NCBI GenBank assembly: GCA_947561395.2
Contig: OX387185.1
Location: forward strand, 25,053,866-25,117,865
Length of the DNA stretch: 64,000 nt
Source: Buxus sempervirens
Lineage: Eukaryota > Streptophyta > Magnoliopsida > Buxales > Buxaceae
Direction: 5' to 3'
In this document: piece after piece, positions 4,664 to 54,131 of the stretch
Numbering within the stretch: position 1 is the first letter of the stretch
Layout of the letters: each line of letters begins with the position of its first letter
Notes under the pieces: generated by a model
Told to the model about the DNA's origin: nothing
What the model saw: only the letters and a program-made list of their open reading frames with translations
The model's database searches: none
Made by a program: the position numbers and the translations under genes

Positions 4664-5098
4664 GCGGGAAGCAGTGCAAGGCTGCAAGCTTCTCACTTCT
4701 CCGCTAATTTTCTGGTCTCTCTCTCTGCTAGGGTTTCTGGAAATTTCTGAGCTTCTTTCTCACTTGTTCTGGTTTGAATTTTTAGCTCTTTTAACCTTCA
4801 TATGATCTTGTTGATCGATCTTTTCAACTTTTCAGGTGAGTTACTCGATCTGTCTTGAATCGGACGAAGAAAGCTCCAATATGATCTGGTGAAGCTGAGG
4901 AGATTTTTATCTTCACTTGATTCTCCACGAAAAGAAAATCAATCCAACGCCTCTCTCTAGCTTAATTTTTCTTGAGATCTTCCGACATAGAAAGCCAGCT
5001 TAATTTCTGTTTCATTTTGAGGATTTTCTTCTGATTTTGATGTGGATTTTCGTTTCAGATATCTGCATTGCCGTCTTCTCTTGACGATCAGAATCAAA

Positions 5099-8319: not shown

Positions 8320-8443
8320 TTATCTATTCTGAATATTTTGTGGCGGGCATACATCCTGACTAGGTTGAGAGCTTGAAATCTTTTGAAGAGAACGATACTG
8401 AAGGCGAATGCTTTCCCCACTTCCAAGAATCCGAAGGAGGTAC
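8320..8443 (-). CDS. PUB62: PUB62-like exon 12 (stop codon)
   Basis: 124 nt. TG+G gives Trp, then [20 protein letters not shown] and on to NIQNR-stop (TAA 8322-8320). The acceptor is CTTACAG. Confidence 0.88.
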
Positions 8444-10045
8444 CTGTAAGAGACCAAAAAAACAATCAGTATCTTAGATAGACGAGGTAATGCTCCTAAC
8501 TCCAATATCAGACCACAAACCAGTTGAGGTGAACCCAGATTTGATAACAATAAAGCCATGGTAACTAAAAACATCCAAATAAAAAGGACTAGGACTACAG
8601 GATTGGCAACAGTAATGCAGTGATAACCCAACCTTTCATTATATAGAATAATCTCAATTAGTGTTGATCATCTTATACCAAGATTGATATTTCAGTATTA
8701 ATTTTTCAAGTGTTACATTGTTTGGTCAAGTTAATTGATTGCAAGTTTTGTGGTTTAATATGTATTGTCTGTGATTAGAGATAGCTGAACTGATTAAAAG
8801 TGAGAAAGAAATAAAAAAATTCAACAAATATCAAAGTTCAGTTCAAGAGATGATATGATTATCAAGTGTTATGTAACTGTAGGCAAGCATACACCTTATC
8901 ATATTTTGATTTCTCAAGTGTTAAAGTAAATAGAAGATGATCATCTTTCTGGTTGTGACACATGGCAACAACCTATTAAGCATGTGAATAAACTTATTTA
9001 AACCAAATCCACTACAAGGTTTAACCTAATAATGATCAAGGTTTGCTGTTTTGGATTAGCTGGGAGTTTAGCCAAGTGTGGTCAAAACGAAATTTCAGCA
9101 ACATGCTGCCAAAAATTCACCAATTTAGGGTGAAGTCCTGAATTGAATGAATTGGTGAAACTTATTGATTGGCAAAATTTCGCTCGATTTGGGCAAGATT
9201 TCAAGTCCCGCTCATTTAAAAGTGATAAAATAAAATAAAATTTTCTGGAAAAAGAAAAAAAAGCATTTCACAGTGTTTAGCCAATTTCACCCAAAGTCTA
9301 GCATCTCACTAGATTTGGAATCGATATTCCCCCTACAAAATGTCTCGCTGGGGGTGTCTAGAGCGAAATTTAAACTGTAAACACTGCTAATAATTGAAGC
9401 TAAGAACTGTGCTATTTATATATCTTGCAGACCCCCAAATATGTAGCTTTGTTTAAGTCATTCTGAATGGAAATTGTAAATGTGGCAATATTCCAACTAG
9501 TGGCCAGAAGCCATTTATATTTTGTCATTTTATTTGACTACATATGCAAATAACTGTGCATGATGATTTATTAATTTTATTTATTATGGAATATCTCATT
9601 GCTATGTCCAGCCCCCCAATCAGTGAACGGTTTATTTTTATATGTAAGTCATCGTGTAATAGACTTTTATTTGAAGGCCTCAGTGGACAGAAAATGATTG
9701 GGCCCCTATGTGATACTATAAAGTTACTGTGAAACTGTAGGCTGACAAGCAAGTGATGTTCATCTGGAAATCTTTAGGAGAGGCAATCAATATTCATGCC
9801 ACTTTAGTTATATAGTAACTTGGATCTTTATATGTATATCTGGGACAATTTTCTATGTAATTTACAGTTATTATTTAATTTTGCATGGCACATGTTAACA
9901 TGTCTAACATTATTCTACAAAAATGTTTTATCTTCATTTTATATGCATAGTCATTGTTTACTGAGTTGAGAAGCTCATCAATTTCTCACATATTTCAGAT
10001 ATAAGTCCCAAAAACAAAAAAGGGGGTAGAGAAGACGACAGTTGA

Positions 10046-10106
<61 letters not shown>

Positions 10107-13100
10107 GGGAGGCCTTTTGTAGCAACTGGCAGACACATATTGTATCCTTTTTCGTAAGATGCTGTATAATTTTGAATTAGCTAAACTGTTTATAATATGA
10201 ATTCTCCACTGCCTTGTGTATACATATTTTAATATTAGGCAGCTAGGTAGTCGCCCATTTTAAGTGAAGTGTTGCAACGGAGCCCGATTGCAGTGAGAAA
10301 TGAGCAAGGATTGAGGGTGTCCTCTGCAAATGACGCACTGCAGTGCCGCTTGGTTGTAGTGAGAAGTGAGCAAGGATTCTCCTATCAAGCTCTACGAACA
10401 CAGGTAAAGAAGCTAGTCCAAGAGAGTAGGATTCGCTTAGGTACTTGGAATATATGAACTTTAATAGGGAAAAAACTAGAACTAGTACATACTGTGAAGA
10501 GAAGGCAGATAAATATAATGCATTTACAAGAAACTAAATGGAAAGGGGTTAAGGCTGAAAATTTTAAGTATAAACCTTGGTACGTAGCAAAAGGTAATAA
10601 TAAAAGTGGGGTAGGAATAATGGTAGATAAAAATATGAAATATAATGTTGTTAGTGATAGGAGAATTAGTGATAGAATAATCTTCCTTAAGTTAATCATA
10701 GGTTAAGAAGTTGTAAACATTATTTGTGCCTATGTACCTCAACTAGGTTTAGATGAAAGCATTAAAAGACTTTTTTGGAAAGAAATGGCATATCTGAAAG
10801 TGAGAGGAAATTTTTAAGGGGGACTTAAATGGCCATGTAGGAGATGAAAGTGATGGTTATAGTAGAATTCATGGAGGAAGAAGAGGCTTTAGCCAAAGGA
10901 ATGATATGTGAAGATCAGTCTTTGAGTTTCCAGTGGCCTATGACCTCATGTTAGCAAACACCATTTTTCCTAAAAGGACTTGAGCATTTGGTGACTTCTA
11001 AGGTGGCGTTTGGCCTAGCTTGTGCTTATGGGTGAGCACTTATGAAGAAGAGCTTGATCGAAAGGTATTATCCACAGTCCTCAGAAGTTGATTATTCAAA
11101 ACAAAAACGCATTTGGTAAACCACCGCTTAAAAGTGGATTGCGGGACGGTATCAGTTGCAGAGGATTGTGATCTTCAGGGCCAGTACTACATTACAATCT
11201 CATATATAATATAGACAATTTCGTTGGTGCACCTCATGGATGCCAAAAAGAATAAGGTTCCCCTTTTCTTCAGAAACCCCCATAATGGAGGATATCGGCT
11301 ATTTTTTGAGAGGAAAAATTAGTTCCAGACACCCAAAAATCCAACAGTTGACCGGAATCTACCTACTCAAGCAGAGTCCAAAAACAGATTTAGATACAAA
11401 CTCGAATCCTACCACTAACAAGACAAGATCTATGGTTCCCAACAGGAAATCAAGGGCATCAACCCAAAAAAAATGGTTCATGAAACCTCACTCTCTAATT
11501 TCAGAGAAAATCAGCATAACAAAACAACGAGATTTGAACAGAACAAAAACCAGAAATTTCACGGATTCATCAAAGGAAATGTTTCCAAAAGCAGATCTCG
11601 GAGCATGAACTGAACTAAGCTCAACTGATGTAGATGGGGGAGATCAGACAAGAAACTACCTCCGAACAGTAGAGAATCCGACTTTAACGCGACCAAAGCT
11701 TCAAATCCCTTCAATCCCGCAAGAAAACCGATATTACGGAAAATAGAGTCCGCTTATGTCACAGACTTTGATTTATAGTACACACAGTCCTAAACTGTAA
11801 AATGCGAGCTCAAAAAGAACCTGTAAATGGAGAAGGGAGACGAACCTGTAAATGGAGATGAACCAGTAAATGGAGAAGGGAAACCGTAAATGGAGACGAA
11901 CCTGTAACAAGTGCACAAAGAGGGAGTCGAACCTGTAAATGGAGAAGGTGCTACAGCTGAAGAGAGAAAGAGGGAGAAATTTCGCAGAGATTGGAGAAGG
12001 CGAGAGAGAGCTCAAAGGCGGGAGACAGCTCGATCGAGAGGGCTTATCGAAATAGAGGAAGGAGAAGCCACTCTCAAGTGCTTCTCCTTATGGGTCATGT
12101 TCCTCTTCTTATGGGTAAGTACTTACCCATTTAAGATAACCAAACAGATTTTAAGCTTAAATAAGTGCTTTAATAAGCCATAAGCCCTAATAAGCACTTA
12201 TTTAAGCAATCCCAAAAGCACCCTAAGAGTGGGTCAAATTAGAGTGAAATTGATTTTTTTTCTTCTTATGAGGAGTAAAATAGCCACTTGTAGAGATTGC
12301 AAAGTTATTCCAAGTGACAGTTTAGCTTCACAACATAGGTTAATGGTGATGGATTTTATTTATTTTTTTGTAAAAAAGTGGGAGAAAAACAAATACACAA
12401 CAAATCCAAAAATAAAATGGTTGAAGTTGAAAGGAGAGAATTTAATAATTTTTAAGAATAAATTAATAAAAGAGGCCAGTTGGGACCTTATGGTGACCAG
12501 TGTTTGACGTTTCGGGCTGAAATTTCGTGTTTCACCTCCCCTTTTGGCACGAAACAAAGGGGGCGGGGAAAGCAAAACAGACTTCCCCAGATTTCGTTGG
12601 GGCGCTGCCGACGAAAGTCACGAAACGTAGTGAAATTTCACTGCGTTTCACCGAGACCCCAGCGAAATGCTGGGCTATCAGGTGATGTGCCACTCGAGGT
12701 TTCGCCCAATTTGGGCGAAATCTCGAGCAGAAGCTTGTTTTGGGGAAAATCTTCCCCAAACCTCAAATTTTTTCATATTTTTCTCAAATTTCTTCCCCTT
12801 TCTTACTCCAAATCAAGTCCCAACATGGATTGAAGATGAAAACACTGATCTCCACCAACATTTGAGTGCTTTGGAGCTTTGAAGGTTTTAAAACAAAGGT
12901 AAATGACATTTTTTCCCTATTTAGTGTTGTAATCAGCTTAGAATGTTATGAATTTTGGATATGATATGTAACAACACCCGATCTATCGATGGGTGTTGTT
13001 AATTTTTTTTTTTACGAAAATTATCATTTTTAAAATTATTTTGCACGAAAATTCATTGAAAATTAGAAAAAATAAATAAAATTCATATTATATGCCCAAA

Positions 13101-16100
13101 AATCATGTAATAATTACTATAATACTAGAATGCCAATCTAATAAAAATATCTTAGGACTTAAATTAAATTTGGGTATTTAAAAATTAGTTATTAACTAAA
13201 TTCGAAAATTAAGAAAAATGTTTAAAAAAATTATTAAAATATGTAAAAATTTAGTAAAATTCATAGATCGGGTGTCCACACTTTTATTTTTGTAAAAAAT
13301 GAATAATTAATTGTTTATTTAATACAAAAAATCATTAAAAAACTTTAAAAAAAATGTTCGATTTTTTTTTTTTTTAGTATGTATTATCTAGATATGATTC
13401 TTATAACTTTCTCACAAATAATGTACCACTAGTTGATTATTTTGATAGTTAATGTATATTAGTGGTGACTTTAAGTGACACTTCTTTTAATTGTTTGCAA
13501 ATTGCAATTGACAAGTAACCTAGTGTAACGGTTACCAGCTAGCGGGTGATGGCATCAAGATCTGGTAGTGCAGGCAGTGTTGGTAGTGATGATGCCGAGG
13601 TGAAAGGGTGCAGAATGGATATAGGATGGAATCACTGTACATGCTATGAGGGGGACATAAATAAGACAATATGTAATTACTGTTATTATGTATTCAAGGG
13701 GGGAGGTATATCGAGATTGAAGCCGCACCTGGTGCATGGCTATAAGGACGTTGCAAATTGTCCTAGAATGCCACCCGAAGTAAAGAAGCAGATACGTGAG
13801 CACCTAGAGGGTGGTGCTAAAAGCGGAAAAAAGAAGCATGTGCAACAAGAGGAGGTAGAGACTAGCAGAGCCTCCAAGGGTACCCTCAGATGATGATGAG
13901 GAGGACACTGTCTACCCTGGTGATATGGTCACAGAGGTTGATAAGGCAAAGTATAGAACACAGATCCGTGCATCCCTGCAATCAGAGTTTGATAGGAGAG
14001 AGAAGCAGAGATAAGGGCTTAAGAGAGGCAGTCCTTCTGGGGTTGGTATTGAGCACACAACTGCAAATCCAAGATCGGCTTTTATGAGGCGTTCTCATTC
14101 CACGAGGATGCCTGATTATCCTGTGGATCCCGCTACAAATAGATCCTCAGACGCGAAGTAGAAGAGACTTAAAGATGTTTGGAGTGGAGGGGGTGTTAGA
14201 CAAAAGATAGGCAAATTCATATCTCGATTCTTTATATTCAATCATATTCCTACAAATGTAGCCGTCTCTCCTCATTTTAAGAGTATGGTTGACGTTATTC
14301 AGGAGTCTGAGGTTGGAGTCCTACCTCCTACCCCGAAGGAGATCATAGGAGTGTATCTAGATGATGAAGAGAAGGAGATGTTGGACTTTATTCGATCTTT
14401 GCATCCTCACTGGGAGAGATTTGGGGTTTTTATTATGTGTGATGGTTGGACAGGCCCTACGAGGCTGTCAATCATCAACTTTATGGTCTACTGTAAAGGC
14501 AAGACCATATTTCTGAAGTCAGTAGATGCCTCAAATAAAATAAAGGACGCAGATTACATCTATGGCTTACTAGAGGGGGTGATCAGAGAGGTAAAGACGC
14601 AGCACGTTGTGCAGATTGTTACATACAATGGGAGTGCCTTCAAGAAGGCTGGTTTGATGATACAGGAGAGGTACCCCATATACTAGACCCCTTGTGTTGC
14701 GCATTGTATAGACTTGATGTTAGAGGACATTAGAAAGAGGATTTCAACTCTACGAGATGCACGGACCCTGACTACTTTTGTTTACAACCATAATTATGTG
14801 TTAGCGAAGATGAAAGCAGCATGTCAGGGAGACATAGTCAGGCCAGGGATCACTGGATTTGGCACAAATTATATTGCTCTGGATAGCATCTTGCGGCACA
14901 AGCAAGGACTGGGGTCATTATTTACTAGTAAGGATTGAGGTAATTGCCCTCAGAGTCGCACTGAGATGGGGAGACGGGTAGAGGACATTGTTCTTTCCAG
15001 CAGCTTTTGGGATAATGTGAGGGAGCTAGTTGATTTATTGGAGCCCATTTACCGGGTGCTACGGATTGTTGACATAGATGCATACCCGACTATCGATTCC
15101 ATCTCTGAGTGCATGAAGGTGATGAAAGCACAAGTTTGAGCTGCAGCAGAGACCTCCTACAAGTGGGTCCACAAGATCATTAATGATCGTTGGGTTTAAA
15201 ATGATGGAGCATCCTCTACACTTGGCAAGTAATTAATTTATAATATTAATTTAGATTTGCTGATGTATTTTTTGTACTTCTTTGCTAATGCTAAGTTGTT
15301 AATATGTCATTTTCTTCTCAAAAACAAAAATAGCGCATTATTTTAACCCGAAATATCACTACAAGGAGAAGCTTGGGACGCACTCAGATATGTGGACAAC
15401 TGTGCATCAAGTTTATGCCCACCTCGATCCCAACTCAAAGGGGCAGGTAAATTTCAACAATGAGGTAAATACTAAATTAATAATAAATAAGTAATCTATA
15501 AATTGTAATTTGGAATCTATTCCACATTTTTACTAATTTCAAAACATGCTCTTGTAGTTGATCATGTTTAGAGATGCCTTGGGGTCATTTGGAATGACGA
15601 CTGTCATTGCCTCGCGGAATATGATGATACCATGTAGGTACTGTAGTACAATTTGGTTACTTTTTTCAATTCACTTAGAATTTTTGATTTTTTTTTTTTT
15701 TATTCTTATTGAAAATCATTACACTTTTCAAGAGAGTGGTGGGCCATGTACGGAGTTGATGCCCCTACTGTACTATGTCGAAGCTTGCCTATTGGATTCC
15801 CACTCAAACTGCATCCTCGTCCGCTTGCAAGCGTAACTGGAGCACCTTTGCATTGATTCATACAAAGCAAAAGAACCAACTCGCCTATCAGAAGCTGCAA
15901 AAGCTCGTGTTTTGTCATTACAATATGAGATTACGAGCAAAGCAGCTGGAGATCAAGACACGTAATACATATGTTGAGGACCCCCTAGACATCCTATGCA
16001 GCACCCACTTGATGAGGACAACCCATTCTCAGAATGGGTGAGGACCGCGGAGTTAGATGAGCCTGATGGTGGGCCAAGTTCAGTCGTTGCTTGTACCGCA

Positions 16101-19100
16101 GCAGAGATGGGGGTTGATGTTAATGCTGTTATGGAGGAGAGAGGATTTGCTTCCATTGACTCTTTCGATAGAGAAACTAGAGTAGTGCCCCCCTTCAGTT
16201 TCTGCAGCAGCAGCGACAGCCTCAGTCTCGGTTCGGTCAGGTGAGCATAGAGAGTTGGAGTCCGAGGATGACGATGATGGAGACAGTGAGAGTGGAAGTG
16301 GTGGAGGGTCTGATGATGACGATGATGATGGTGATAATCATCAGGGAGGTGGAGGACACTCACATGGGCCAAGGGTTATTCCTTTCACTGGGGAGGCAGC
16401 ATACACACACGCGACCCAGGACTCCAACCATGGAGGACGATACGCTCAGGGTGGTCAATCGAAGACAGTGACACATACTTTTCAGAGGCGAGGTAAGGGA
16501 AAGGAGAGGATTGGTGCCCAGGAGGAGGAGATGTCTCTATCTCTTATGACCATGGACATGGGGGGATCTAACAACACATCTTCACATAGTTATGGGGATT
16601 AGAGCAGACAGTATGGAGGATATGCATATCCATATCCAGGGCAGTTGCAGACATCTGACAGCTACGGGTTATTTCCATCCTATCCAGTTGCACCAGTTCC
16701 ATATCCAACTGCATACGGATATGGATATGTCCCAGTGCCAATCCCAGTCTCGGCCATCCCATATCCATATGATTATTATCCTTCACCTCCATCACCAATC
16801 GTAGCAAATAAGGAGGATGAGGATGAGGACGAGAGTATTCTTATTATGGAGTATTATGATGATTGTCCTCCTGTGGGCTTTGTTGTGTATTCAGATCAGG
16901 ATGAGTATGAGGAGGTGGTGCATCGTTAAAGAGATCAGTATGCAAGGTGCATGTCGTGGAAGCGATATGTTCATATGCTTGAGAGACGACGGCATCAACA
17001 GCAACAGCATTTCCAGCCTCCTAGACACTCCACCTCTTATTGATACTTGATAGTGATAATGATACTATCTAGTGTCCATTGGCTCCAATCTGTCTTCTCC
17101 TTTGTAGCTTGTACTTTGTTTTTACTTTGCAATTTGTATGACTTCTTAATTTGTAGTTTATAACTTCGCAGTTATACTCGTCTCTTGTAGTTTGCATTGT
17201 GTATGCATGACTATGAGTGTATGACTTCATTTACATTTTGTAGTGTGGTCTAATAGTTATTATTTAATAGTTGTGCTTGTATTTGTTCATAAATTAGAGA
17301 CCTATGCTTCCTTATTCTTTCTATGTTACATATAAACTGTATACAATCATGTGCAATATGTTTTTCTTCCTATTTTAAGCTATTTTTGTGCATTTCGCAA
17401 GTTTTCATTGGTGTGCCATCGGCGTGCCACCAATTTCTCCAAAAATGTTTTTTTTCCCCATTTCGCCATATTTCGCCGGGGTGCCGCCGGTTTTTCGTTT
17501 CGTGCCCCTGGAGGCACGCCAGGTGGCACCGAAAAGGCAATCCTTGATGGTGACCGAACTAGGATATGCAATAAAATGGCAAATTTCATCCCAAGACTTG
17601 GAAAAGAAGTATTAGGAGAATCACGAGGTAGTATTCCAGCTCATAGGAAAACTTGGAAGTAGAGTGATGTAGTCCAAGAAGCTACTAAAGAGAAAATACT
17701 TTATTTTAAAATTTGGCAAAAGAATAAAACCCAAAAAACCTTCGAAAGATAAAAAAAATATATTATAAAAGAAAGTACGAAGAAAATTAGTGAAGCTAAA
17801 ATCATGCCTATGACAGCTTAAATGATAAGTTCGATACTAAAGAAAATGAAAACTTTATATATAAATTATCAAGATTTAGAGAGAGGACAACGAGGGAGTT
17901 AAAGCAAGTCAAATGTATTATAAGTGAAGATTCAAGAGTTTTTGTAAAAGATGAGAAGATTAAAGAAAGGTGGAAGGAATATTTTATGAAATTATTATGG
18001 GGATGGTACACAGAGATCTGGATTTTGCATGGATGATAGCAGTAATGGAACTAGAGAACAAGCTTATATTCGTAAGATTCGAGTTGTAGAAGTTAGAGAT
18101 GCTTTAGTCAAAATGAGAATAGGAAAAGCCTTAGGCCCAGATGGCATCCCTAGAGAGAAATGGAAGTGCATGGGAGATATTGGAGCATTTTGTTTAACAA
18201 AATTACTTAACAAAATTACTTAATAAAATTTAAAGGACTGGAAAAATGCCAAATGCTTGGAGGATTAGTACAATAATACCAATATATAAGAATAAGGGAG
18301 ATGGGCAAGAGTATGAAAATTACTGGGGCATAATTTTATAAGTCACACTATGAAATTGTGGGAAAGAGTGATTGAGCATAAATTAAGGCTAATAACTATG
18401 AAAATGAGGATAGATAAAGCCTTGGGTACAGATGGCATCCCTAAAGAGAAGTGGAAGTACATGGGAGATATTGGTGCATTTTGGTTGACTAAATTACTTA
18501 ATAAAATTTTAAGGACTGTAAAAATGCCAAATGCTTGGAGGATTAGTACAATAATACCAACATATAAGAATAAGGGAGATGTGAAAGAATGTGCAAATTA
18601 CCAGGGCATACTTTTTTGAATCACGCTATGAAATTGTGGGAAAGAGTGATTGAGCATAGATTAAGGCTATAACTAGAGTGACAGAAAACTAGTTTGGATT
18701 TATGGCTAATAGATTCACTACCGAAGCTATATTTTTACTTAGACATTTAATAGAAAAGTCTAGAGAAAAGAAAAAAAGATTTGCACATGGTTTTTATTGA
18801 TTTAGAAAAAGCGTATGATAGGGCTCCAAGAGAATTAATTTGGTGGATTTTGTATTAAAAAGATGTACCAATGAAATATATTGATATAATGAAGATATAT
18901 ATGTGGGAACCTTAACTAAAGTGAAAATTATTGGTGGTGAGATGACTAATTTTCCGGTTAAAATAGGTTTGCATCAAGGGTCAGCTATTAGCCCTTATCT
19001 TTTCACTTTAATCATGGATGAGTTTATGAGTCATATTCAAGATGAGGTGCCTCGGTGTATGGTATTTACAAATGATGCAGTATTGATGGGTCACACTAAA

Positions 19101-21255
19101 GAAGTAAATATTAAACAGGAATTGTGGAGAGATACCTTAGCATCAAATAAGCTATGCGAATATCGAATATATGATATGCCCTTTTAATACAAATAACAAT
19201 ATAACAAATGAAACTATTAGAATTGGCAATCAGGATATCCCTTTAAGTAATAAGTAGAAATATTGTGTATAAAGGAACAAAAAGATGGAGACATTGATGA
19301 AGATGTTACACATAGAATTAGAGCTGGTTGGCTTAAGTGGAGGGGTGCTTCTATTGTTTTGTGTGATAAGCGTGTTTCACTTAAATTAAAAGGTAAATTT
19401 TATAAGACAACAATTAGACCATGTTGTACGGTGTAGAATGTTGGGCGGCAAAGAATCAACATGTTCAAAAGATGAGTGTTACCGAGATGAGGATGCCAAA
19501 ATGGACTCGTGACAAAACTAAGAAAGACAAAATAAGAAACGAAGAAATTCAAAAGTAGTTAGGCATAGCATGCATTAGAGATAAAATGTAGGAAAGTAGG
19601 TTAAGGTGGTTTGATCATATAAAGCAGAGACCTAGAGATGCACTTGCTAGAAGGTGTGAGAGTATGTAGATTGAAGGGCCTAAGCTAGCAAGAGGGAGAC
19701 CTAAAAAGACATGGATGGAGTCTATAAACCAAGATTTACAAAAACATAAATTAATTGAAAATATGATTTTTGATAGGGCAGGATAGAGAGATAAGATTTG
19801 TGTCGCCGACCCCACTTTGGTGGGAACTGGCTTACGATGCTAATGATGATGAGGCAACTCTGTTTATCATCATCATTATCAAAAGCCAATTCCCACCAAA
19901 TTGGGGTCGGCAACACGAATCTTGTCTCTCCATCCCCCTTTGTTTATCATGATGTTTATATTATGACTTGTATTTGTATATGCATAATGCTTAGTAAATA
20001 TTGTTCGTGACAACTACCTTACCCAAAGATGTCTGCGGCAGCAAAGAGACTATAAAATTCCAACCCTGCGAAGACTTCATCTCTATATGACTTCATCAAG
20101 GCCATTTCTTGTCTTCTTCTAGCCCTTTGAATCCTTCAACTTGTGCAGTATTAAACCATCTTGCAAGTGCTTCTATGAGGTTTTTCCACATGCCAAAACT
20201 AAACCAACCATCTTTTATTTTATTGCTTGAGGCAATCTGGATTCTCGACAAAATCCATTCCATATTTTTCTTTGTCCCTAACATAAAGCCATCTCATTGT
20301 CCTCATCTTGGCTATTCTCATCTGATTAATATTCTGATTTTCAGTTTTCCAACATTCTACATGTATCAGAACTGGTCTAAAATAGAATCTTACAGAATTC
20401 ACCATTTTAAATCGGTTAAAAGCATTAGTCAAATAACACCCTAAAAGCTCCCACTTCCATTCTCTACCTGTAGTTCTATGGGGACTTCCTTGATATCTCC
20501 CATTTTAAGAACAGATGATCCAAGAAAAAGCAAGCAATCATCTTTCATTGTACTATTTTCTGTTATTCCTATATTATAATATCTTTTTCGGACAGGTTAG
20601 CTATCCAGCTAGTATTCAATCATGCTCCAATTTTCCATCAATTTAAAGATTCCAGATATTCATATTAATGTCTTTAAACCATTTTGATTCAAAGTTATCT
20701 TTCCAAAAATCTAGTTTTCCAATTATTCATCCTCCAGTTCAGTTCCTAATTCCAAGTCATCTTCAAATAGCATATATCAAACTATCATAGGGCATTCTAG
20801 AAGAGTATTTCCACATGAATGGCAATGAAGCAGCTTAAACAGAGGAACCACCCAAATCTGACCCTATAGGAACATATTTGGGTACAAGAAAGGACAGAAT
20901 TGGTTCGTTGGTTTACCAAAATCCATTTCAAACTTCTCATGGTGCCATTTGTACTACGACTGGAATTCGCACGTTACACTTGAGAACCGATCAAGAAATA
21001 CCACCTCGCCCCATCCTAATAACAAGTTGCTGTCAAGTCAGAACAGGGTGTATTTCTACAGGATCCAGGTGGCAATTGCCGAACCCAAACTGAATCTTAC
21101 CCATTGCAACCGACTCCACTTAGGACCATCAGACCCATCGAACCCTGTACTTATCCTACATTGACCTTTTCATGTAGCCGACACCACTTTGGTGGGAACT
21201 GGCTGATGATGACTATTATTTTACTTTTTATCTATATTTTTTATTTACATCTATA

Positions 21256-21288
<33 letters not shown>

Positions 21289-42200: not shown

Positions 42201-45200
42201 AAATAGAATTTTTTTATCTGCTTGTTGAAAGGACATGGAAGATAAATAACAATCTGCATGAGGTTCAAAATTAGGTAGAGGAATTTTATTACTCAGTGAC
42301 AAAAGGATTTCCCTAAAGGCTTACCACCAATGCATATCATACAATATGAAATTGATTTGGTCTGAAGGACTACACCAAAACAGGCAGCATATCAAATGCT
42401 AACAAATATTTGAGATGAGATGAAAAGACAAGAAAGGGTTGCTTGCAATGTGCAAATGAATTAGTGCATTTAAGCAAGAGCCCATAAACTATACTTACAT
42501 TGTTTATGTCTAATAATGCTGGTTCATAGAGAATATGCATGGACAGCAGCATAATAAATAAGATAGCTTTCAGGTGCGGATGGCTTATCCAAATGGCTCG
42601 TAATGCCTTTTGGCTTATTTAATGCCCCTGGTAAATTTATGTGAGTCATGATTGAGATACATTGTCCTTCATTGAGTTCTTTTATACTACTAAGTCCACT
42701 GATATTTTAAATTTCTGGCTGCAAAAAAGAGTTCAAATTTGTTCCATTTCAACCAACTCATGTAGATTCTTAAAAATGAGACCATTTTTTATTTGAATAA
42801 ATCCTCCTTCCTGAGCAATGCGACATTTTTGTGATATACCATTCCATTAAATAGAGTAAAAATTAATTTAGAGAAAACAAAAGTGGAAAACGGCCTCACA
42901 CTTTGGTCCATGAGAAATGCTCATAATATCCACAGGTTGGCTTCCTTTCATAGGGGTTTTTCAAGTTCTGAATCGCATTGCCAAAGTACGGGTTTCCTAA
43001 TAATATGGAAGTAGGTTCGGATAATACTTTTTTCCATCCATAATAGATACTTATTCGAAAGTAACCAACTATGTGTGACACAAGGGATCCTTACATAAAT
43101 TAATTATTAGGAAGCTGCATGAAGGGAGTTTGCATGGTGATTTTGGAACAGATTAGATATCAGAAATGGTGACTGATTGGTGTCATCAATTAAGGATGAA
43201 CTGGAGGTTGAAATATTGGCAGAACATGCCAGTTTGATAAGGCGCAATCTCAAAATGCATCCTGAACTACAAATTCTGACTTCTCCATGGATTTTCACTT
43301 GTACGGATTGAGCAGGGAATTCTAAATATGGCATGTGGCTATGGACACAATTCCATATTCGTTGTAATGGATAGTTTTCCAAAGATGACACACTTCATTC
43401 TAGGTTAGAAGAAGTCTGATTCTTCAAAATCATCACTAATAAAAAAAAAGATCAGAAATCTGATGCTTCTGTCATATCAGAATGTTCTTAAGAGGGGTAG
43501 TTCATTTGCACCAGATTCAAAAACATTTCTTCTGACCAAAATGTTAAGTTTTTGGGGGTACTTTTCACTTTGTGGAAAAAAATTTGGCACTCAGTTTATT
43601 ATTCCAGCATTAATCATCTACAAACTGATGGTAGATAGAAGCTGCAAATCCGAGCATTAGAAGCTCACTAAATCTAGAAAGTGGCACATGCAGTGCTGAA
43701 CACTAGTAATTCAAAATATAGGAATTTAAAGAGATAAAATACGGGAATTGAAATAATGGAAACAGTTGCAAGTCTCTTTGTAAGTTGTAGCTCAAAATGT
43801 TTTTCCATGGGACTCTTGTGGGAGAGTAAGAGTAGTAATGGAAATCAAAAACATAGGAAACATAACCTCATTACCTACTAAAAGTATGGAAAAACTAAAT
43901 TGCCCCTTTGAAAACATTTCTTACTATAGTACTGCAAGGTTGTTTTTGGAAAGACATTATTTTATTTATTTATTTATTTTTGTTATGATTAATAAACAGA
44001 TATATTAAAATCTAAGGATAGTACAATTACAAGAAACCCATGAGATATGATTAAACGCTTACAAAGTTTGTTGTTTTATGGTTTCTTCCTTTCGGGTACA
44101 CAATTTGTGTACTTCATAATTTTTGCTGATTTCATTAATGAATTCTTATTGCCAATCTAAAAAGAAAAAAGAAAAGAACAACCAACGACAAAAACCAGCA
44201 AGCACAGATACAACAACATGATTAAAAAAATGGCAAGAAGATAATGAAAACTGGCAGAAACTGATCCAATAGTGTAAATGTAGCCCAATCCCGTCAGATG
44301 CCAAATATGGCCCAATTTTCTACTCAGGCTGAGTTCACTTCTTAGAAAAACAGCAAGAAGATAAATCAGCCCAATTTTCTGAGATGCTCTCTCCCTGTAT
44401 ATGTTTTATGGATGTATAGAGGTAAGTTATGCGAAGATGAGTAATAGTGTTCTATCTCAGGCTGAGTTCACTTACCATAACTCCGTTAACCACACAAAGG
44501 GAGATTTTTTTAGGCTATTTATGGGCACAACCCACAACATATGCCAAACCTTTTTCCGTTGACACCTAATATGCGAGTTGAGATGAAAAGTTTCTGCTGA
44601 TCACATTGGAGGTGCATCTGCATGACACCTAATGTGGCATGATGAGGTGCATGCCACCATCAAAACCAGCCATGAATAATATGTGGAGGCAACAAAACAG
44701 CATTGAAGGTTTAATGATTTCGCTAAGAATGACCAAGTTTTGGAGCATCTGAGGGATAGGTTTTCTATGGGATTGTCAAGGTGAAGCCAAGGAAGATTAC
44801 ATGCTGCAAGATTCTAAGGGAGATTAGTTGAGCTACCAAATGATTTACATAATAAACCCATCCTCGTTGTATCACATTTCGATGATTTCCATTTGTTTGA
44901 TAGATTGTTATGGGATTCCTCGTGAATAACTTAATCAAATGTCAAAGAGGCTGCATAAGGTAATAGAAGATGAGAAGATTGGACTAAAACCAATGTGGAG
45001 CTTGATGCATCGCCAAAAACTCTTCAGTTCCTCTCCTAAAGTGACTAAAGAATGGCCACCGGTGTCAAGTTCCACAAGACCTCAAGCCAAGATGATCCTT
45101 TACGAAAACTCCAAGACAAAAGAACCTGATCCAAATCTTGAGGCTGCAACCAACTCTTCCCAATTCTCAACAAGAAGGCTTTCCAAATAGCATTTGCCAC

Positions 45201-48200
45201 CTTCACAAGCATATGACTCACCGATTCCCCTTGAGATTTGCACATCACACACTTGTTTGGCATCTGCCATCCACGCTTCATGAGGTTGTCAATTGTTAAT
45301 ATTTTCCCCAATACTGCTGCCACATGAATAAACTGATTTCTGTAGGAAGAGCCAATTGCCACACTATGCGCACCAACTTGGTTATAGAGGCATCTCACAA
45401 AAAATCACCGGAACAACCCCCCCCCCCCCCCAAAACAAAAAAAAAATTCATCACATCCGGATTCAAGGTAGGTCATGAACTGAAGCCAATAGCAAAGCTA
45501 ACGAATCCACCTCCCAATCAAACAGATTCCATCTGAAATTTAAGTTCCAACTCCCTCCTCCAGAATCTTGGTGATACACCTTAGAGATGTATACTTGAGG
45601 ACCTGCTGAAAGGTTGTAGATATCCGCAAATTTGGCCTTCAGAGAGCCATCCCCACACCACACATCATCCCAAAGAGTCTTGCAGCATATAATCTTCCTT
45701 GTCTTTACCTTGAAAACTTCTTCCAATTGTAACAGGTTTCCCTTTTTCCAGGCCCGGTACACTTATCATGTACTTGTTGGACTGGTTTCTATATTTTAAT
45801 ATACATACTCTATTATTAATTTATTACCAATCAAAAGAAGGTAATAGAGATCTGCTGCACACAAAGAAAGCCCGTTATCAATACTAAAGGTTCCTAATCA
45901 AATGGCTCAGAATAAAAGTTGTGATTATCTTATGCAGAGATTGTAAGTAGCGCCCATTATATTTCAGTTTATTATTGAAGAAAAAGGATCTTTTTCCCCT
46001 CTGCAAAGACCAGAAGATTCATTCTTCTTTGTTCTTCACTTCTCTTATCATTGATATTCACAATCAAATCAGATTCTTGTTGATTTGAGTAATCTTTTCC
46101 ACATCAGATATGATTCTGTGCATTAGAATATATGTGTATATGCGTGCATGTGGGTGTGAGAGAGAGGGAGAAAGAGGAAGTGAAGACAAGGACAACAAAG
46201 GAACATGGAAGGTGGGATCAGAGAAGAAAAGGAAATTAGAGTGCCACTCATTAGAAAGAGGAGAGATGCTTGTTCGTGAAATCAATGTAGTTGAAAAAAT
46301 TAAGAAACATAGATTATAAAAAAATTAATAAAATAATTACTACTTTTTAGGAGGATACATAAAGCCATAGACTAAACATCAGAGTAGCAACCAAATAGAG
46401 GTGACACTTGAGACGGTGGTAAAGCCTTGTGATAACCATATCCAAGGCCTAAGTTCAAAACCCACCCACCCAATCAAAGAAAGTGTGCTCGATAGCTTAA
46501 CTCCAACTGAGACCATTCAAGTCATTTGAGTTACCGTTTTATGCCAGGCCATGAATCACCCCTGAAGCTGTGATCCCTAAGGAGGTATGTGTGTAATTGG
46601 CTTGTGCCAAGTGGGTAGTGCCCGTGGCAACTGCACCAACCAAAAAAAAAAAAAAGAGTAGCAACCAAATGCTATAATGCCAGATGAGACCAGCCAAAGA
46701 TACCTGCTTTGAGCCATGGAAAAAGATGCTGTTGATGAAGAATATCAAAACAAGAGTGATTTACTACAGTCCGAAAGTTTGGGCATTAAAGACTTAGTCT
46801 CAAAAAAATTCTGTGGCTGTCCAATTCGAATAAGCTAGAACCTAATGCTTTCAAAAGGAATAACAAAAATGAGGAAACCACATAAATGTAAATTGTGACA
46901 ACCACTAGTGATTTTTCTGCCTCCACTACCATTTACATTTTACAAACTCATTTCACAGGTATATATCTTTTTGTACATACTAAATTTAAAACTTACACAA
47001 GTGTTATCCGAATGGTTGCACATCACATCCTCTTCTGCAGAAAGATCGTCCATAAACTGGCTTACAGAGATTGGTACATAACTCTGGGGAATCACATGAC
47101 CAGCTGCTGCAATTGGAGAGCAATCTAATATCGCATTGCTCTGTGGCATAAGCCTGAATGCCAGTGATGTCCTATATGCACAAATTCAGCTGTCATTCGG
47201 TCCATTTCAGTATTAGGGTTTCTCAAATATGCAAAAGCTGAACAAATAACTATTTGCTTCAATTAAAAATGCATCACCATGACTAAATCAAACAGAATGA
47301 AAATCAACCTTCCACCACTGGCGGTACCAGAAAAGCTGTCAGGTGCAGCTCTGTACGAAGCAGCAGGGCGAAGACCAGCAGTAGCATGGCTAAGTGCCTT
47401 GCCAGTGAGAAGCAAAAGATCTCCTGGACTTGACCTGCCATCTGCTAGGTACCAACGATTATTGGGGTCACACACCTACAGAAGAAACAATTGATAAAAA
47501 TGATTTGGAGATCATATCAAAGCAGTTTAAATCACTAGTTAGGATTACTCTTTTATAATTGACCAAATTAAGAATCACAATAAAAATACGAAACCACATA
47601 ATGGCACAATTGCCAGGATGATGACAACTAAACTTCCATACCAAAATCTCCCATCATAAGAAATACACAATTTTTTGACATAACAATATTTTCGGAGCAC
47701 CAAGAGAAGGATACCTGAAGACCAGGACCATCCGATGCAATCAATGTCAACAATCCCTTCTCATTTTCACCATTAGCTGCTGGCTTCCCTACTCCTATAG
47801 CACTTCTGCCATTTTGTAAGGATGCATGAGAATAGGCTGCGACCAATACTGATGAAGATGCCTCGTTGGCAGGCAATGGGGTATCATCAAGCAAATGGTT
47901 AAATACACTGCCAACAAACATTTATAATAGAAAGTGTGATGTATGAAATCAAAAACAGGAGGAAAGATATTGCAAACTATTTGAAATATAGAACTTCTAT
48001 CAACGCCATCCTTACTCGCTTCTCAAACGAAGATGCCTCGCTATTGCACATAGAGCAGAGCGAGCAGCCTTTCCCATACATCTAAAAATATCAGGCATGC
48101 AAGGAGGAGATGAGTCTTCATCTTCCAAAGCCCTGCTTCCAAATGAGCCAATCATGTAAATATTTGTTCTTCCCAATGAAAAATATTCATACATGATTAA

Positions 48201-50266: not shown

Positions 50267-50303
<37 letters not shown>

Positions 50304-53300: not shown

Positions 53301-54131
53301 TACATAATTAAGATCGAACTTTGTCCATTAATAATGTGAAGCACGATTTTAGCTTAAATCCCATAATAATTAAAACCCAGAAAATAAATTAAGGCTCCCA
53401 CCTCAATTAAACAATTCAAAATCAAAATTATGGTTTCAAATTTCCCACGTTTCCATTACATCGATCCTTCCCATATTTTGAAGTTTTTATGAACAATTTT
53501 CAATTTAGAAAATTCATAAAGAATTGTAACTTCTCCCAAATTTCCCTCAAAATTAAAATCTAAAATGCATGCTCAAGAGAACCTTTTCAGTTCAATTCAA
53601 ATGAAATTTTTTTATGATACGTATAAATTCCTACCTTCCTGCCCTGTAGATGTATACCCCTCGATTTCCCTTCCCGACCATCTGAGCCCTCGTCCTGAAG
53701 AAAAATCTCGCGGACTCCAACGCGCATCGCATCAACGCTGTGTCCTCACTCCCCAGTTCAATCACTGCCGCATTGTGCCTCATCAGCGAACCGTACAAGG
53801 CCTCCACCGACCGAACATAGATCGTTCCCGGTGCTCCGTCATAAGGAACGATATCGGAGAGTCGGACTCTGGCGAGCGGTGACACAGCAACGAGTGTCTC
53901 TCCGGGCGGATTTGCGGAGGCAATCGGCTCCGGCCCGATCACACGATCGGTTTGTGTCCGACGATGCGAAGCCGCCGTCGAAGTCGATGCAGGGACAGAA
54001 AGCAAACCGAGAGAGAGCGAAGAAGGCGGATGCTGCAGCTGCATAGAGGAAGAAGAGGGAGGGTTGTTGGAGGGAGGCACCGTTAATGGAGTCGGAGCCA
54101 TGGCAGATATCGGCATTGCTATTACAAGCAT
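8320..54131 (-). CDS. PUB62: U-box domain-containing protein 62-like E3 ubiquitin ligase, 12 coding exons over 45.8 kb
   Basis: Exons in gene order: 54131-53635, 48132-48016, 47907-47715, 47475-47309, 47171-46997, 40951-40890, 39480-39399, 24454-24397, 24269-24145, 22899-22807, 22710-22640, 8443-8320. Total 1,764 nt, 587 aa, with GT/AG borders and matching phases at every junction. Residues 1-60 are Pro/Ser-rich and about 88-340 form the conserved N-terminal region of this family. The U-box/RING-like fold spans about 405-465, with SCGHSFGG in exon 7 and [18 protein letters not shown] in exon 8, followed by the basic [20 protein letters not shown] stretch. The family's C-terminal domain ([20 protein letters not shown] to LQYRSL) fills exons 10-12. 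The first ATG was chosen because a TGA lies in frame two codons upstream. U-box proteins pass ubiquitin from an E2 to substrates; the target here is unknown. The family match is from memory of plant PUB62-like proteins, not a search. Confidence 0.92.
9037..9386. mobile_element. hAT-type MITE
   Basis: The ends are CAAGGTTTGCTGTTTTGG and, on the other strand, CAGTGTTTACAGTTTAAA. An exact 8-bp duplication, ctaataat, occurs at 9026-9033 and 9387-9394, with three extra bases before the left end. Both ends resemble the two unequal ends of the hAT element at 12498-17546. It has no coding capacity and lies in intron 11 of the U-box gene. Confidence 0.7.
10050..10103. repeat. (GA)n microsatellite
   Basis: An uninterrupted run of about 27 GA units in intron 11. 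Confidence 0.95.
11002..12223. mobile_element. PIF/Harbinger-like non-autonomous element inserted in the RTE LINE
   Basis: The 12-bp ends GGTGGCGTTTGG and (other strand) GGGTGCTTTTGG match at 9 of 12 positions. They are flanked by TAA at 10999-11001 and 12224-12226, the 3-bp target typical of PIF/Harbinger. Removing it rejoins the LINE frame (LVTF.KSGSNQ region). The interior holds tandem copies of 'cctgtaaatggag' near 11820-11945 and no recognisable transposase. The 122-aa open frame inside shows no family features. Confidence 0.75.
12967..13280. repeat. Inverted-ended AT-rich insert in the hAT element
   Basis: The left end TGTAACAACACCCGATCTAT is mirrored at the right by (other strand) TGTGGACACCCGATCTAT. 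The left end also folds on itself: AACAACACCC/GGGTGTTGTT. No target duplication was found. It could be a small LTR-type remnant or a MITE. Confidence 0.45.
13546..16930 (+). pseudogene. Degenerate hAT transposase gene (BED finger, DUF659, dimerisation domain)
   Basis: The domains appear in the order expected for a hAT transposase. A BED zinc finger ([20 protein letters not shown]) is at 13546-13893. The DUF659-type core is at 14285-14938 ([20 protein letters not shown]). Further segments are at about 15345-15475 and 15555-15640. The C-terminal dimerisation domain is near 15780-15940 ([18 protein letters not shown]). After this comes an acidic and Tyr/Pro-rich tail with [10 protein letters not shown] near 16760. 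Gaps near 15220-15340 and 15460-15550 look like introns. Stops at several points, including before [13 protein letters not shown], and frame changes show it is no longer coding. Confidence 0.8.
18111..18692 (+). repeat. Tandem duplication inside the LINE reverse transcriptase
   Basis: Two units of about 291 bp each (18111-18401 and 18402-18692) both encode the same reverse-transcriptase stretch ([17 protein letters not shown] and [17 protein letters not shown]). They have diverged by scattered substitutions. Confidence 0.8.
19859..20640 (-). mobile_element. RTE LINE 3' fragment, tail-to-tail with the previous copy
   Basis: The minus strand carries the RTE 3' end (GCCGACCCCAATTTGGTGGG) at 19890-19910. 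Upstream of it is the C-terminal coding motif [20 protein letters not shown] (about 20270-20375), equivalent to the usual 'MLYGTECW...MRMLRW' region. It is truncated and non-coding. Confidence 0.7.
21168..21215 (+). mobile_element. RTE LINE 3' tail fragment
   Basis: GCCGACACCACTTTGGTGGG followed by ctgatgatgact, the same 3' end as the RTE copies upstream. A (cata)n tract follows at about 21256-21288. Confidence 0.6.
21444..21760. repeat. Pyrimidine-rich repeat, copy 1
   Basis: Long CT-rich tract ending near a 'cacggcacac' motif. A similar arrangement occurs at 50395-50760. The open frames across it are compositional artefacts (Ser/Pro/Leu only). Confidence 0.4.
22369..22538 (-). mobile_element. 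Au-like SINE
   Basis: The minus strand starts GAGGGCGAGCCTTTGCGCAG and has the polymerase III B box GGTTCGAGCC, then a 3' T-rich end (gggctagccctttttt region). The flanks are 19-bp target duplications, atatacgtataaacacata (22350-22368) and atatacatataaacacata (22539-22557), matching at 18 of 19. It sits about 100 bp downstream of exon 11 in the sense orientation of the U-box gene. Confidence 0.85.
22640..22710 (-). CDS. PUB62: PUB62-like exon 11
   Basis: 71 nt. Encodes [23 protein letters not shown] plus TG, with donor GTGAGC. The following intron is 14.2 kb. Confidence 0.88.
22807..22899 (-). CDS. PUB62: PUB62-like exon 10
   Basis: 93 nt, 31 codons. Encodes [17 protein letters not shown] then [14 protein letters not shown]. 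The flanks are ACTCAG and GTGAAT. Confidence 0.88.
22900..24144. other. PUB62: Intron 9 of the U-box gene
   Basis: 1,245 bp. It holds a small MITE (23267-23385), an (aaag)n tract near 23145 and two related stretches of about 150 bp (23400-23570 and 23575-23740) sharing 'gttgatcatgtcatttgctgcaa'-type sequence in shorter blocks. No exon is seen. Confidence 0.6.
23267..23385. mobile_element. Small MITE, 'CATGGTTTTA' family, copy 1
   Basis: The ends CATGGTTTTAGATATCC and (other strand) CATGGTTTTAAATATTG enclose about 119 bp with repeated atatatc words. It is the same family as 38015-38192. The target duplication is unclear. Confidence 0.55.
24145..24269 (-). CDS. PUB62: PUB62-like exon 9
   Basis: 125 nt. 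A+CT gives Thr, then [20 protein letters not shown] and on to DSLKRLNR. It ends AGG|GTACAT in phase 0. Confidence 0.9.
24397..24454 (-). CDS. PUB62: PUB62-like exon 8 (second half of U-box)
   Basis: 58 nt. TTGCAG|TCAAGATG encodes [19 protein letters not shown] plus one base. The donor GTATGC is weaker than its neighbours but keeps the frame. It lies 14.9 kb downstream of exon 7. Confidence 0.88.
25420..25814. mobile_element. MITE with GATGGCAACGGTTCGG ends
   Basis: Inverted ends share GATGGCAACGGTTCGGTT. An exact 9-bp duplication, aagcctatt, lies at 25411-25419 and 25815-25823, a length usual for Mutator-like elements. The interior is made of many 'ggttttggttt/aaaccaa' words. It lies in intron 7. 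Confidence 0.75.
25909..26056. mobile_element. Small hAT-like MITE
   Basis: It begins CTAGGTTTTAAGTATCG and ends TTTAAACCTTG, enclosing repeated 'gtatcg/cgatac' words. Flanking 8-mers caccagaa and cacagaag agree only partly. Confidence 0.5.
26057..28139. other. Part of intron 7, no gene seen
   Basis: AT-rich sequence without a recognisable coding exon or repeat family. Open frames are short and lack family features. Confidence 0.4.
28140..28640 (+). mobile_element. Eroded L1-type LINE 3' end
   Basis: The plus strand reads [15 protein letters not shown], like the end of the RNase H domain of plant L1 elements, near 28300-28350, followed by a T-rich L1-style 3' UTR. It is heavily decayed. Confidence 0.4.
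29128..29323. mobile_element. hAT-type MITE, 196 bp
   Basis: The ends CATGGTTTACAATTCCGGCA and (other strand) CAAGGTTTTACATTTTGCCA match at about 14 of 21. The flanking 8-mers gttccaat (29120-29127) and gttgcaat (29324-29331) match at 7 of 8. The interior has gaaatc/gattt words. It lies in intron 7. Confidence 0.7.
29849..29962 (+). repeat. Short tandem units in the L1 5' UTR
   Basis: About eight imperfect units built on cgactgga(g/a)(c/t)gaa with spacer words 'gcgtcgg', directly upstream of ORF1. Confidence 0.7.
29998..32834 (+). pseudogene. L1 ORF1 (nucleic-acid chaperone-type protein), broken
   Basis: Most segments keep one frame, with in-frame stops after GGGRRQ (about 30200) and RPKQNSG (about 30833) and at about 31292. 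The frame changes around 31294-31555, and a further shift comes before the last segment. A DUF4283-like patch with [18 protein letters not shown] is seen near 31105-31160, as in plant L1 ORF1. The last segment ends TAA at 32832-32834, overlapping the ORF2 ATG by one base. Confidence 0.75.
32834..36987 (+). pseudogene. L1 ORF2 (endonuclease, reverse transcriptase, zinc-binding region, RNase H), broken
   Basis: It starts MKIIS at ATG 32834. Domains in order: an apurinic-type endonuclease ([22 protein letters not shown] near 33510); a reverse transcriptase ([42 protein letters not shown] near 34900); a zinc-binding region ([18 protein letters not shown] near 36120-36175); and a C-terminal RNase H ([42 protein letters not shown]). 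About five breaks are visible: two early stops before 32945, a frame change near 34760, a stop directly before FADD, and a slip at the T run near 35655. The RNase H domain is typical of many plant L1s. Confidence 0.9.
37093..38014. other. Part of intron 7, no gene seen
   Basis: AT-rich, and no recognisable exon, repeat family or RNA gene. Confidence 0.4.
38015..38192. mobile_element. Small MITE, 'CATGGTTTTA' family, copy 2
   Basis: CATGGTTCTAATATCCATAT at the left and atatttaaaaccac at the right, with the same atatatc-rich interior as 23267-23385. The right edge is approximate. Confidence 0.5.
38826..39274. mobile_element. Mutator-like MITE
   Basis: Inverted ends share GGGAAAATTA and, further in, ATAAAAACAGT. 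The flanking 9-mers ttaaaattt (38817-38825) and ttaagattt (39275-39283) match at 8 of 9. The middle carries 3-4 tandem units of 'ggacacaagcgcat..tacgt' (38990-39110). It ends 125 bp from exon 7 of the U-box gene. Confidence 0.7.
39399..39480 (-). CDS. PUB62: PUB62-like exon 7 (first half of U-box)
   Basis: 82 nt. TC+T gives Ser, then [20 protein letters not shown] and LRKVLEM. The donor is GTAAGC. Confidence 0.9.
39481..40889. other. PUB62: Intron 6 of the U-box gene
   Basis: 1,409 bp, AT-rich. It contains an alternating purine-pyrimidine tract at 40676-40737. No other element was recognised. Confidence 0.6.
40676..40737. repeat. Alternating TA/TG/CG tract
   Basis: About 60 bp of nearly strict purine-pyrimidine alternation, moving from (ta)n through (tg)n to (cg)n blocks. 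Confidence 0.9.
40890..40951 (-). CDS. PUB62: PUB62-like exon 6
   Basis: 62 nt. TTACAG|GAAGCTCG encodes [20 protein letters not shown] plus TC, with donor GTAAGT. It was located by predicting the missing family segment. Confidence 0.88.
42570..43400 (+). mobile_element. Ty3/gypsy polyprotein fossil fragment
   Basis: The plus strand shows weak but ordered family motifs: a reverse-transcriptase patch ([10 protein letters not shown] near 42605-42640), a later patch like LASFHRGF (near 42940), and an integrase-region patch with TCQ and FSKMTHFI near 43210-43400. It is heavily decayed with many breaks and large losses, and no LTRs are recognised. It is old. Confidence 0.6.
44972..45837. mobile_element. 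L1 insertion with inverted 5' part (twin-priming structure)
   Basis: The left, larger part reads L1 ORF2 C-terminal coding on the minus strand (45045-45762: zinc-binding region [36 protein letters not shown]). The right end (about 45755-45837) reads an L1 3' UTR on the plus strand, ending ttaccaatcaaaag. The outer flanks are a near-identical target duplication, aaggtaatagaagat (44957-44971) and aaggtaatagagat (45838-45851). A 15-base C run (45417-45431) interrupts the coding part. Confidence 0.75.
46397..46654 (+). mobile_element. tRNA-derived SINE with perfect target duplication
   Basis: 258 bp ending in a 14-base A run, flanked by an exact 16-bp repeat agagtagcaaccaaat (46381-46396 and 46655-46670). 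The head has polymerase III-like boxes: 'tggtaaagcc' near 46417 and 'agttcaaaaccc' near 46452. It lies 343 bp downstream of exon 5 in intron 5, antisense to the gene. Family not identified. Confidence 0.85.
46997..47171 (-). CDS. PUB62: PUB62-like exon 5
   Basis: 175 nt. AG+G gives Arg, then [19 protein letters not shown] and on to CNHSDNTC. The donor is a consensus TGT|GTAAGT. Confidence 0.9.
47309..47475 (-). CDS. PUB62: PUB62-like exon 4
   Basis: 167 nt. Follows TGTAG and encodes [19 protein letters not shown] onwards, ending GGA AG|GTTGAT. Confidence 0.9.
47715..47907 (-). CDS. PUB62: PUB62-like exon 3
   Basis: 193 nt. GA+T gives Asp, then [15 protein letters not shown]. It ends at TTCAG|GTATCC in phase 0. 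Confidence 0.9.
48016..48132 (-). CDS. PUB62: PUB62-like exon 2
   Basis: 117 nt. The acceptor GCAG|GG restores AG+G (Arg), then [20 protein letters not shown]. The donor is GA|GTAAGG. Confidence 0.9.
48870..49510. repeat. AT-rich repeat-like block
   Basis: 'gaatctagaatctagaatc' words at the left and 'gattatagaatc' words at the right surround about 300 bp of nearly pure A/T (49010-49330). The right part has 'caacgccc' twice, as at the ends of some plant MITEs. Boundaries and family are uncertain. Confidence 0.35.
49883..50299 (+). mobile_element. 417-bp insert with 15-bp direct repeats and (TA)n tail, family unknown
   Basis: An exact 15-bp repeat atcaaaggacttctt flanks the insert (49868-49882 and 50300-50314). 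It contains 'gttcaataaaact' near 49997 and ends in a (ta)n run. The layout fits a non-LTR retroposon or retroposed transcript with a simple tail. Confidence 0.55.
50395..50760. repeat. Pyrimidine-rich repeat, copy 2
   Basis: CT-rich tract followed by 'cacggcacac', as in copy 1 at 21444-21760. No coding value. Confidence 0.4.
51945..52390 (-). mobile_element. RTE-related LINE 3' fragment
   Basis: The left edge 'gccttgtcccaactaggttg' is the complement of an RTE/retroposon 3' end. Sequence upstream on the minus strand resembles, weakly, the decayed RTE copy at 19859-20640. Confidence 0.4.
52630..52990 (+). mobile_element. Two copies of an L1-type 3' tail flanking a G run
   Basis: About 125 bp is repeated at 52645-52745 and 52855-52955 (both contain 'aggtacacaatctgtgtacc' and end 'gattaccgatcaaaa'). 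Between them is a 22-base G run (52803-52824) followed by (cg)n. Confidence 0.6.
53635..54131 (-). CDS. PUB62: PUB62-like exon 1 (start codon)
   Basis: 497 nt, residues 1-165 plus two bases. It starts [11 protein letters not shown] and ends GVYIYRAG + AG|GTAGGA. Alternative in-frame ATGs lie 5 and 10 codons downstream. Confidence 0.9.

Follow-up and report, generated by a model that had tools for sequence, protein, structure and literature searches.

Long introns rich in transposable elements (TEs) are common in some plants. The mean intron of ginkgo is reported as 7,884 bp, with 12.45% of introns exceeding 20 kb (PMC5118899), and that of Pinus massoniana as more than 11 kb (PMC12122422). The long-intron genes presented in the available parts of these two reports combine TE-rich introns of at least 10 kb with conserved exons, and the elements stressed there are LTR elements (PMC5118899, PMC12122422). 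Among the plant PUB62/63 proteins, AtPUB62 corresponds to AT5G05230, and the Brassica oleracea gene paired with it, BoPUB96, is approximately 1.7 kb long (PMC6947298). PUB62 and PUB63 labels in papers on other species follow the numbering of each paper, orthology to AtPUB62/63 is not established in the available text of those papers, and the labels were therefore set aside. RING-type domains with a single zinc site are also on record. In SP-RINGs the first zinc site is missing (PMC13061254) and the distal one retained, whereas in the UBR4 hemiRING it is the proximal site that remains (PMC10873205).

The window analysed here, a 64-kb stretch of Buxus sempervirens DNA taken at its full length, contains a gene that can be compared with these systems. 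Rebuilding the minus-strand chain from position 54131 to position 8320 yielded 12 exons and 11 introns, and the joined exons (1,764 nt including the stop codon) form a 587-aa open reading frame with no internal stops. The gene spans 45,812 bp, 96.1% of it intron, and all 11 introns start with GT and end with AG, measuring from intron 1 to intron 11 5502, 108, 239, 137, 6045, 1409, 14944, 127, 1245, 96 and 14196 bp. The first-pass annotation of this DNA had proposed 12 exons, 587 aa, 45.8 kb and about 96% intron, and both its numbers and its coordinates were reproduced, as were the lengths that it gave for intron 7 (14.9 kb) and intron 11 (14.2 kb). We consider the open spliced frame and its splice dinucleotides to be established. 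When ranked with plant consensus matrices, the 22 splice sites fall between the 79.9th and the 100th percentile of all 2,180 GT and 2,446 AG sites in the span, the lowest rank being that of the exon 8 donor. Exon 8 is also the weakest exon when scored alone (coding score -1.7 bits, equalled by 15% of random AG-bounded segments), and exon 6 is weak as well (0.5 bits, equalled by 8%). For introns 1, 5 and 9, whose joins lie outside every homology match, support comes from phase and splice sites.

Table 1. Exons, the two longest introns and transposon coding traces of the PUB62-like gene (window coordinates).
Feature	Position	Strand	Remarks
Exon 1	53635..54131	-	Residues 1-166
Exon 2	48016..48132	-	Residues 166-205; oxygenase-like match begins
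Exon 3	47715..47907	-	Residues 205-269; E252 and E254 at iron-binding HxD positions
Exon 4	47309..47475	-	Residues 270-325; Y310 at third iron-ligand position
Exon 5	46997..47171	-	Residues 325-383; R325 and S327 of RxS motif
Exon 6	40890..40951	-	Residues 384-404; RING/U-box-like region begins
Exon 7	39399..39480	-	Residues 404-431; predicted zinc ligands C416, H418
Exon 8	24397..24454	-	Residues 432-451; predicted zinc ligands C434, C437
Exon 9	24145..24269	-	Residues 451-492; RING/U-box-like region ends, then charged stretch
Exon 10	22807..22899	-	Residues 493-523; PF23112 begins
Exon 11	22640..22710	-	Residues 524-547; within PF23112
Exon 12	8320..8443	-	Residues 547-587 and stop; PF23112 ends
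Intron 7	24455..39398	-	14,944 bp; divides retained zinc site (predicted)
Intron 11	8444..22639	-	14,196 bp; divides PF23112
LINE, several open segments	30835..36984	+	DUF4283, Exo_endo_phos, RVT_1, zf-RVT, RVT_3 (Pfam); antisense, intron 7
hAT transposase pieces	13543..16038	+	zf-BED, DUF659, Dimer_Tnp_hAT; antisense, intron 11
Reverse-transcriptase fragment	18885..19184	+	RVT_1, below curated cut-off; antisense, intron 11
LINE fragment	45048..45404	-	zf-RVT; sense, intron 5

The start codon at 54131 lies in a poor context (tgatcgATGC), and two more ATGs in the same frame lie downstream of it, at 54116 and 54101. The last of these has a better context (gccATGG) and would give a protein of 577 aa, so that, judged by context, translation is more likely to start at 54101 than at 54131. 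With the start uncertain and in-frame ATGs lying downstream, 587 aa is to be read as an upper value. Upstream on the minus strand there are also three out-of-frame ATGs, at 54201 (14 codons), 54169 (6 codons) and 54138, whose 99-codon frame overlaps the main one. It is possible that they exert translational control, or that transcription starts further downstream.

Assignment of the product to the PUB62/63 family, which has received little study, follows from its C-terminus, where the Pfam domain PUB62-63_C (PF23112) is matched over residues 510-568 at all 59 of its 59 profile positions (E = 1.3e-35; 121.3 bits, cut-off 27.1). Exons 10 and 11 by themselves match profile positions 1-37 (E = 1.4e-22) and exon 12 by itself positions 39-59 (E = 2.2e-6); the position missing between the two half matches corresponds to W547, whose codon is divided by the 14.2-kb intron 11. 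An open 587-aa frame together with a complete PF23112 domain that spans intron 11 bears out the earlier proposal of an intact PUB62-like gene, and the C-terminal domain of the plant PUB62/63 proteins is thus preserved in full. Two scans each of the genome-contig and viral-contig sets found no relative.

The introns contain repeat copies (in introns 1, 5, 7, 9 and 11) and four elements with transposon coding traces, three of which run antisense and one sense to the gene, as judged from their strands (Table 1). In the intron 7 LINE, Exo_endo_phos denotes the endonuclease and RVT_3 an RNase-H-like domain. Where the first-pass annotation had described two LINEs of 5-9 kb span, a 5-kb hAT element, SINEs and MITEs, the profile matches confirm one such LINE in intron 7 and hAT pieces distributed over 13.5-16.0 kb of intron 11. 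A below-cut-off dCache_3 match at 10458-10703 was dismissed as spurious; by eye, this stretch resembles a LINE endonuclease. We also observed a local duplication in intron 11 (18110-18669; spacing 278-291 bp, copies 87-90% alike) and, in intron 1, two 122-bp copies that are 92% alike, separated by 212 bp and adjacent to a long run of C (52625-52958). An imperfect inverted repeat occurs in intron 7 near exon 7 (38932-39174), with 54-nt arms that are 70% complementary and 135 nt apart; its shape is MITE-like and makes it a candidate MITE.

As in the long-intron genes of ginkgo and pine, conserved exons are here combined with TE-rich introns of at least 10 kb, but the coding traces in this gene are those of LINE and hAT elements and not of the LTR elements emphasized in the available text on those species (PMC5118899, PMC12122422). 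The present gene extends over 45.8 kb, compared with roughly 1.7 kb for BoPUB96. The suggestion that the gene is exceptional because of its length is weak; long TE-rich introns being common in some plants (PMC5118899, PMC12122422), gene length is not a novelty. The gene does provide a clear example of exons that stay conserved while introns grow heavily, and annotation software could usefully be tested on it.

Elsewhere in the window, a phytocyanin-type copper-binding domain (PF02298, E = 1.4e-16) is encoded on the plus strand at 5944-6474, convergent with the PUB62-like gene, and the segment at 5021-5389 on the same strand looks by eye like a probable first exon of that phytocyanin-type gene, with no Pfam match. 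A segment at 63416-63763 on the plus strand resembles a retrotransposon gag (PF03732, E = 0.00019), its match narrowly missing the cut-off, and minus-strand segments at 60755-61363, with no Pfam match at E 0.01, look by eye like the polymerase and RNase H of a Ty1-copia element. The 64-kb window gave no matches in Rfam and tRNA scans.

Much of the N-terminal half of the product consists of an oxygenase-type domain, which was absent from the first-pass description. Sequence comparison establishes homology between residues 180-366 and the 2-oxoglutarate/iron oxygenases. A hidden Markov model built from 12 plasmid-borne 2-oxoglutarate/iron oxygenases and ANS matched the whole product with 25.3 bits (E = 9.4e-7) in a search of 2,003 sequences including 2,000 shuffles, the best of which reached an E-value of 2.2. 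Alignment of residues 81-370 to oxygenases with hhalign gave 96.0%; the value was 0.2% when the fragment was reversed and 0.3% for the last 217 residues of the protein. A PDB sequence search with residues 84-349 returned as its sole match at E ≤ 10 the iron/ascorbate family oxidoreductase 3on7 (E = 0.0036). A tblastn search of plasmids with residues 84-365 yielded 21 records at E ≤ 10; the 15 matches listed, with weak E-values of 0.03-2, were all annotated as isopenicillin N synthase or 2-oxoglutarate/iron oxygenase. Pfam and NCBIfam profiles produced no oxygenase match on the protein. Scored singly against the oxygenase profile, exons 2, 3, 4 and 5 attain 0.3, 1.0, -1.4 and 0.3 bits, values equalled by 8, 5, 22 and 18 per 1,000 shuffles, respectively. 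We also considered exon 1 as the usual N-terminal half of an oxygenase and rejected this assignment as unsupported, 58 of 1,000 shuffles scoring as well against the model; a structure predicted from exon 1 by itself was of low quality (mean pLDDT 45.7, pTM 0.26).

At five active-site positions of this domain where 13 of 13 reference oxygenases have H, D, H, R and S, the product has E252, E254, Y310, R325 and S327. The RxS motif for 2-oxoglutarate is thus present, whereas all three positions of the HxD...H iron ligands are changed. ANS and isopenicillin N synthase type oxygenases share with the product both the homology over residues 180-366 and the RxS motif, but they carry the H, D, H ligands that are replaced here by E, E and Y. 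Because the three iron-ligand positions are replaced, neither the usual binding of iron nor catalysis is expected, and we predict the domain to be a pseudo-oxygenase.

The region that follows (residues ~392-454) had been interpreted as a U-box formed by exons 7 and 8, in what was called a U-box E3 ligase. The Pfam U-box profile (PF04564) gave no match at E ≤ 10 with either the whole protein or the fragment, in HMMER searches whose filters discard most matches with E above ~0.1; a motif scan found no canonical U-box in the gene, and a phmmer search of all ORF pieces with the PUB14 U-box gave no significant match (best E = 3.7). The best library matches are RING-related and weak, namely a rad18 model (0.0024, falling far short of the cut-off), ZnF_RZ (0.1) and zf-C3HC4_2 (0.16). 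A PDB search with the fragment returned 18 matches at E ≤ 10, the first 10 of which are COP1 or BMI1-type RING sequences (one was deposited as COMMD3, but it aligns like BMI1), headed by a weak match of residues 393-453 to the COP1 RING (E = 0.016). RING and U-box proteins account for 12 of the 18, counting a plant U-box, which appears only at E = 1.2, and Cwc24, which we take to be a RING protein; the remaining six are unrelated (two PurM, two cytochrome c6, a ribosomal protein and an aldolase). Against the COP1 RING (PDB 7vgg), exons 6-7 (residues 384-431) score 14.9 bits and exons 8-9 (residues 432-492) 3.4 bits, whereas the joined 76-residue stretch 389-464 reaches 24.6 bits, with 5.7 bits for the best of 300 shuffles. 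The RING score obtained by joining exons 7 and 8 across intron 7 therefore exceeds the sum of its parts, which upholds the union of the two exons in one domain, though that domain is closer to a RING than to a U-box.

The eight zinc ligands of a RING are arranged in a cross-brace, in which ligands 3, 4, 7 and 8 make up one of the two zinc sites. In the COP1 alignment, these four ligands are kept, as C416, H418, C434 and C437, and they flank intron 7, whose junction falls between residues 431 and 432. Ligands 1, 2, 5 and 6 are replaced by D401, S404, G421 and M424; as aligned, D401 could in principle serve as a zinc ligand, and S404, G421 and M424 cannot make a normal first zinc site. The region consequently has neither the eight ligands of a RING such as that of COP1, four of which are missing, nor the lack of zinc-coordinating residues typical of a U-box, given that four Cys/His residues align with RING ligands and are predicted to bind zinc. 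A parallel in this respect is the SP-RING (Siz/PIAS), in which the first zinc site is likewise lost and the second kept, as the COP1 alignment suggests for this protein, but no SP-RING Pfam profile matched and the sequence is nearer to COP1-type RINGs. The UBR4 hemiRING also has one site kept and one lost, but, as far as the published text available to us describes it, its kept site is the proximal one. In RINGs and SP-RINGs, the hydrophobic residue preceding ligand 2 contacts the E2 (PMC13061254); in the present protein, this residue is L403.

An ordinary zinc-free U-box, in which the Cys and His residues are incidental, would offer another account of this region. The family bears the U-box name, and the PUB14 U-box aligns with 10.3 bits (6.4 for the best of 300 shuffles), placing DPLS under CPIS and LIPN under LTPN. 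This score is nevertheless well below the 24.6 bits obtained with the COP1 RING, the leading PDB matches are RING sequences with the plant U-box far behind, and the four residues retained are those of one zinc site. We consequently regard a zinc-free U-box as unlikely, while granting it appreciable weight. The earlier designation as a U-box E3 ligase is supported only in part: the Pfam U-box profile gives no match, the region is nearer to RINGs, and it keeps the ligands of one zinc site while losing those of the other.

A different alternative concerns the transcript. With two introns of more than 14 kb that harbor TE remains, RNA polymerase II might terminate, or the transcript be polyadenylated, within intron 7 or intron 11, so that two or three shorter transcripts would arise and the full-length protein would rarely or never be made. 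Intron 7 does contain 9 sense AATAAA words and intron 11 has 20, and reading on would yield a 446-aa product without C434 and C437 from intron 7 and a 547-aa product from intron 11. The antisense strand, however, contains even more of these words (12 and 22), so there is no sense enrichment. Moreover, the exons downstream of both introns are all open and in frame, their splice sites rank at or above the 79.9th percentile, and exon 12 alone still matches PF23112, all of which makes habitual truncation improbable. Less probable still, to the point of being a marginal concern, is that this copy was silenced not long ago and, its sequence undamaged, goes unexpressed while another copy does the work, given the complete lack of stops and frameshifts in 1,764 nt and of broken splice dinucleotides at the 11 introns.

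Taken together, these results lead us to favor, with considerable confidence, a single intact PUB62/63 gene with long introns that is expressed as one mRNA and encodes a protein combining a pseudo-oxygenase with a half-RING; on the sequence evidence, this is the most likely reading, and the oxygenase part is predicted to have no enzyme activity. The locus would have grown chiefly in introns 1, 5, 7 and 11, with transposon coding traces in introns 5, 7 and 11. RNA polymerase II would then read across ~44 kb of intron, and splicing would produce the single mRNA, the intronic elements perhaps being tolerated in part because most of those seen are antisense to the gene. If these elements form silenced chromatin, a system of the ASI1(IBM2)-AIPP1-EDM2 type, reported in plants to bind heterochromatic introns and to favor the distal poly(A) site (PMC7472560), might, as a guess, do the same here. 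In the protein, residues 180-366 would adopt a metal-free oxygenase-type barrel used for binding or as a scaffold, and residues ~392-454 would fold into a half-RING with a single zinc, to which an E2 could dock. PF23112, at the C-terminus, may provide an additional interaction surface.

How the domains of the PUB62/63 protein are read is of more interest than the length of its gene. Which metal ligands are lost and which are kept is shown, by alignment, in one protein, the product of this gene. We found no description of an oxygenase-like and half-RING reading of PUB62/63 in open-licence PubMed Central, although curators of fold databases may well have noticed the fold already. We tentatively propose, as a possibility to which we would not yet give even odds, that PUB62/63-type proteins are a separate design and not usual U-box ligases, pairing a metal-free pseudo-oxygenase that keeps its co-substrate Arg and Ser with a single-zinc, SP-RING-like half-RING. 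Such proteins could be E3 ligases for ubiquitin or a ubiquitin-like modifier that receive substrate or small-molecule input through the dead oxygenase. If the pseudo-oxygenase and half-RING reading is true, the PUB62/63 proteins should be reclassified.
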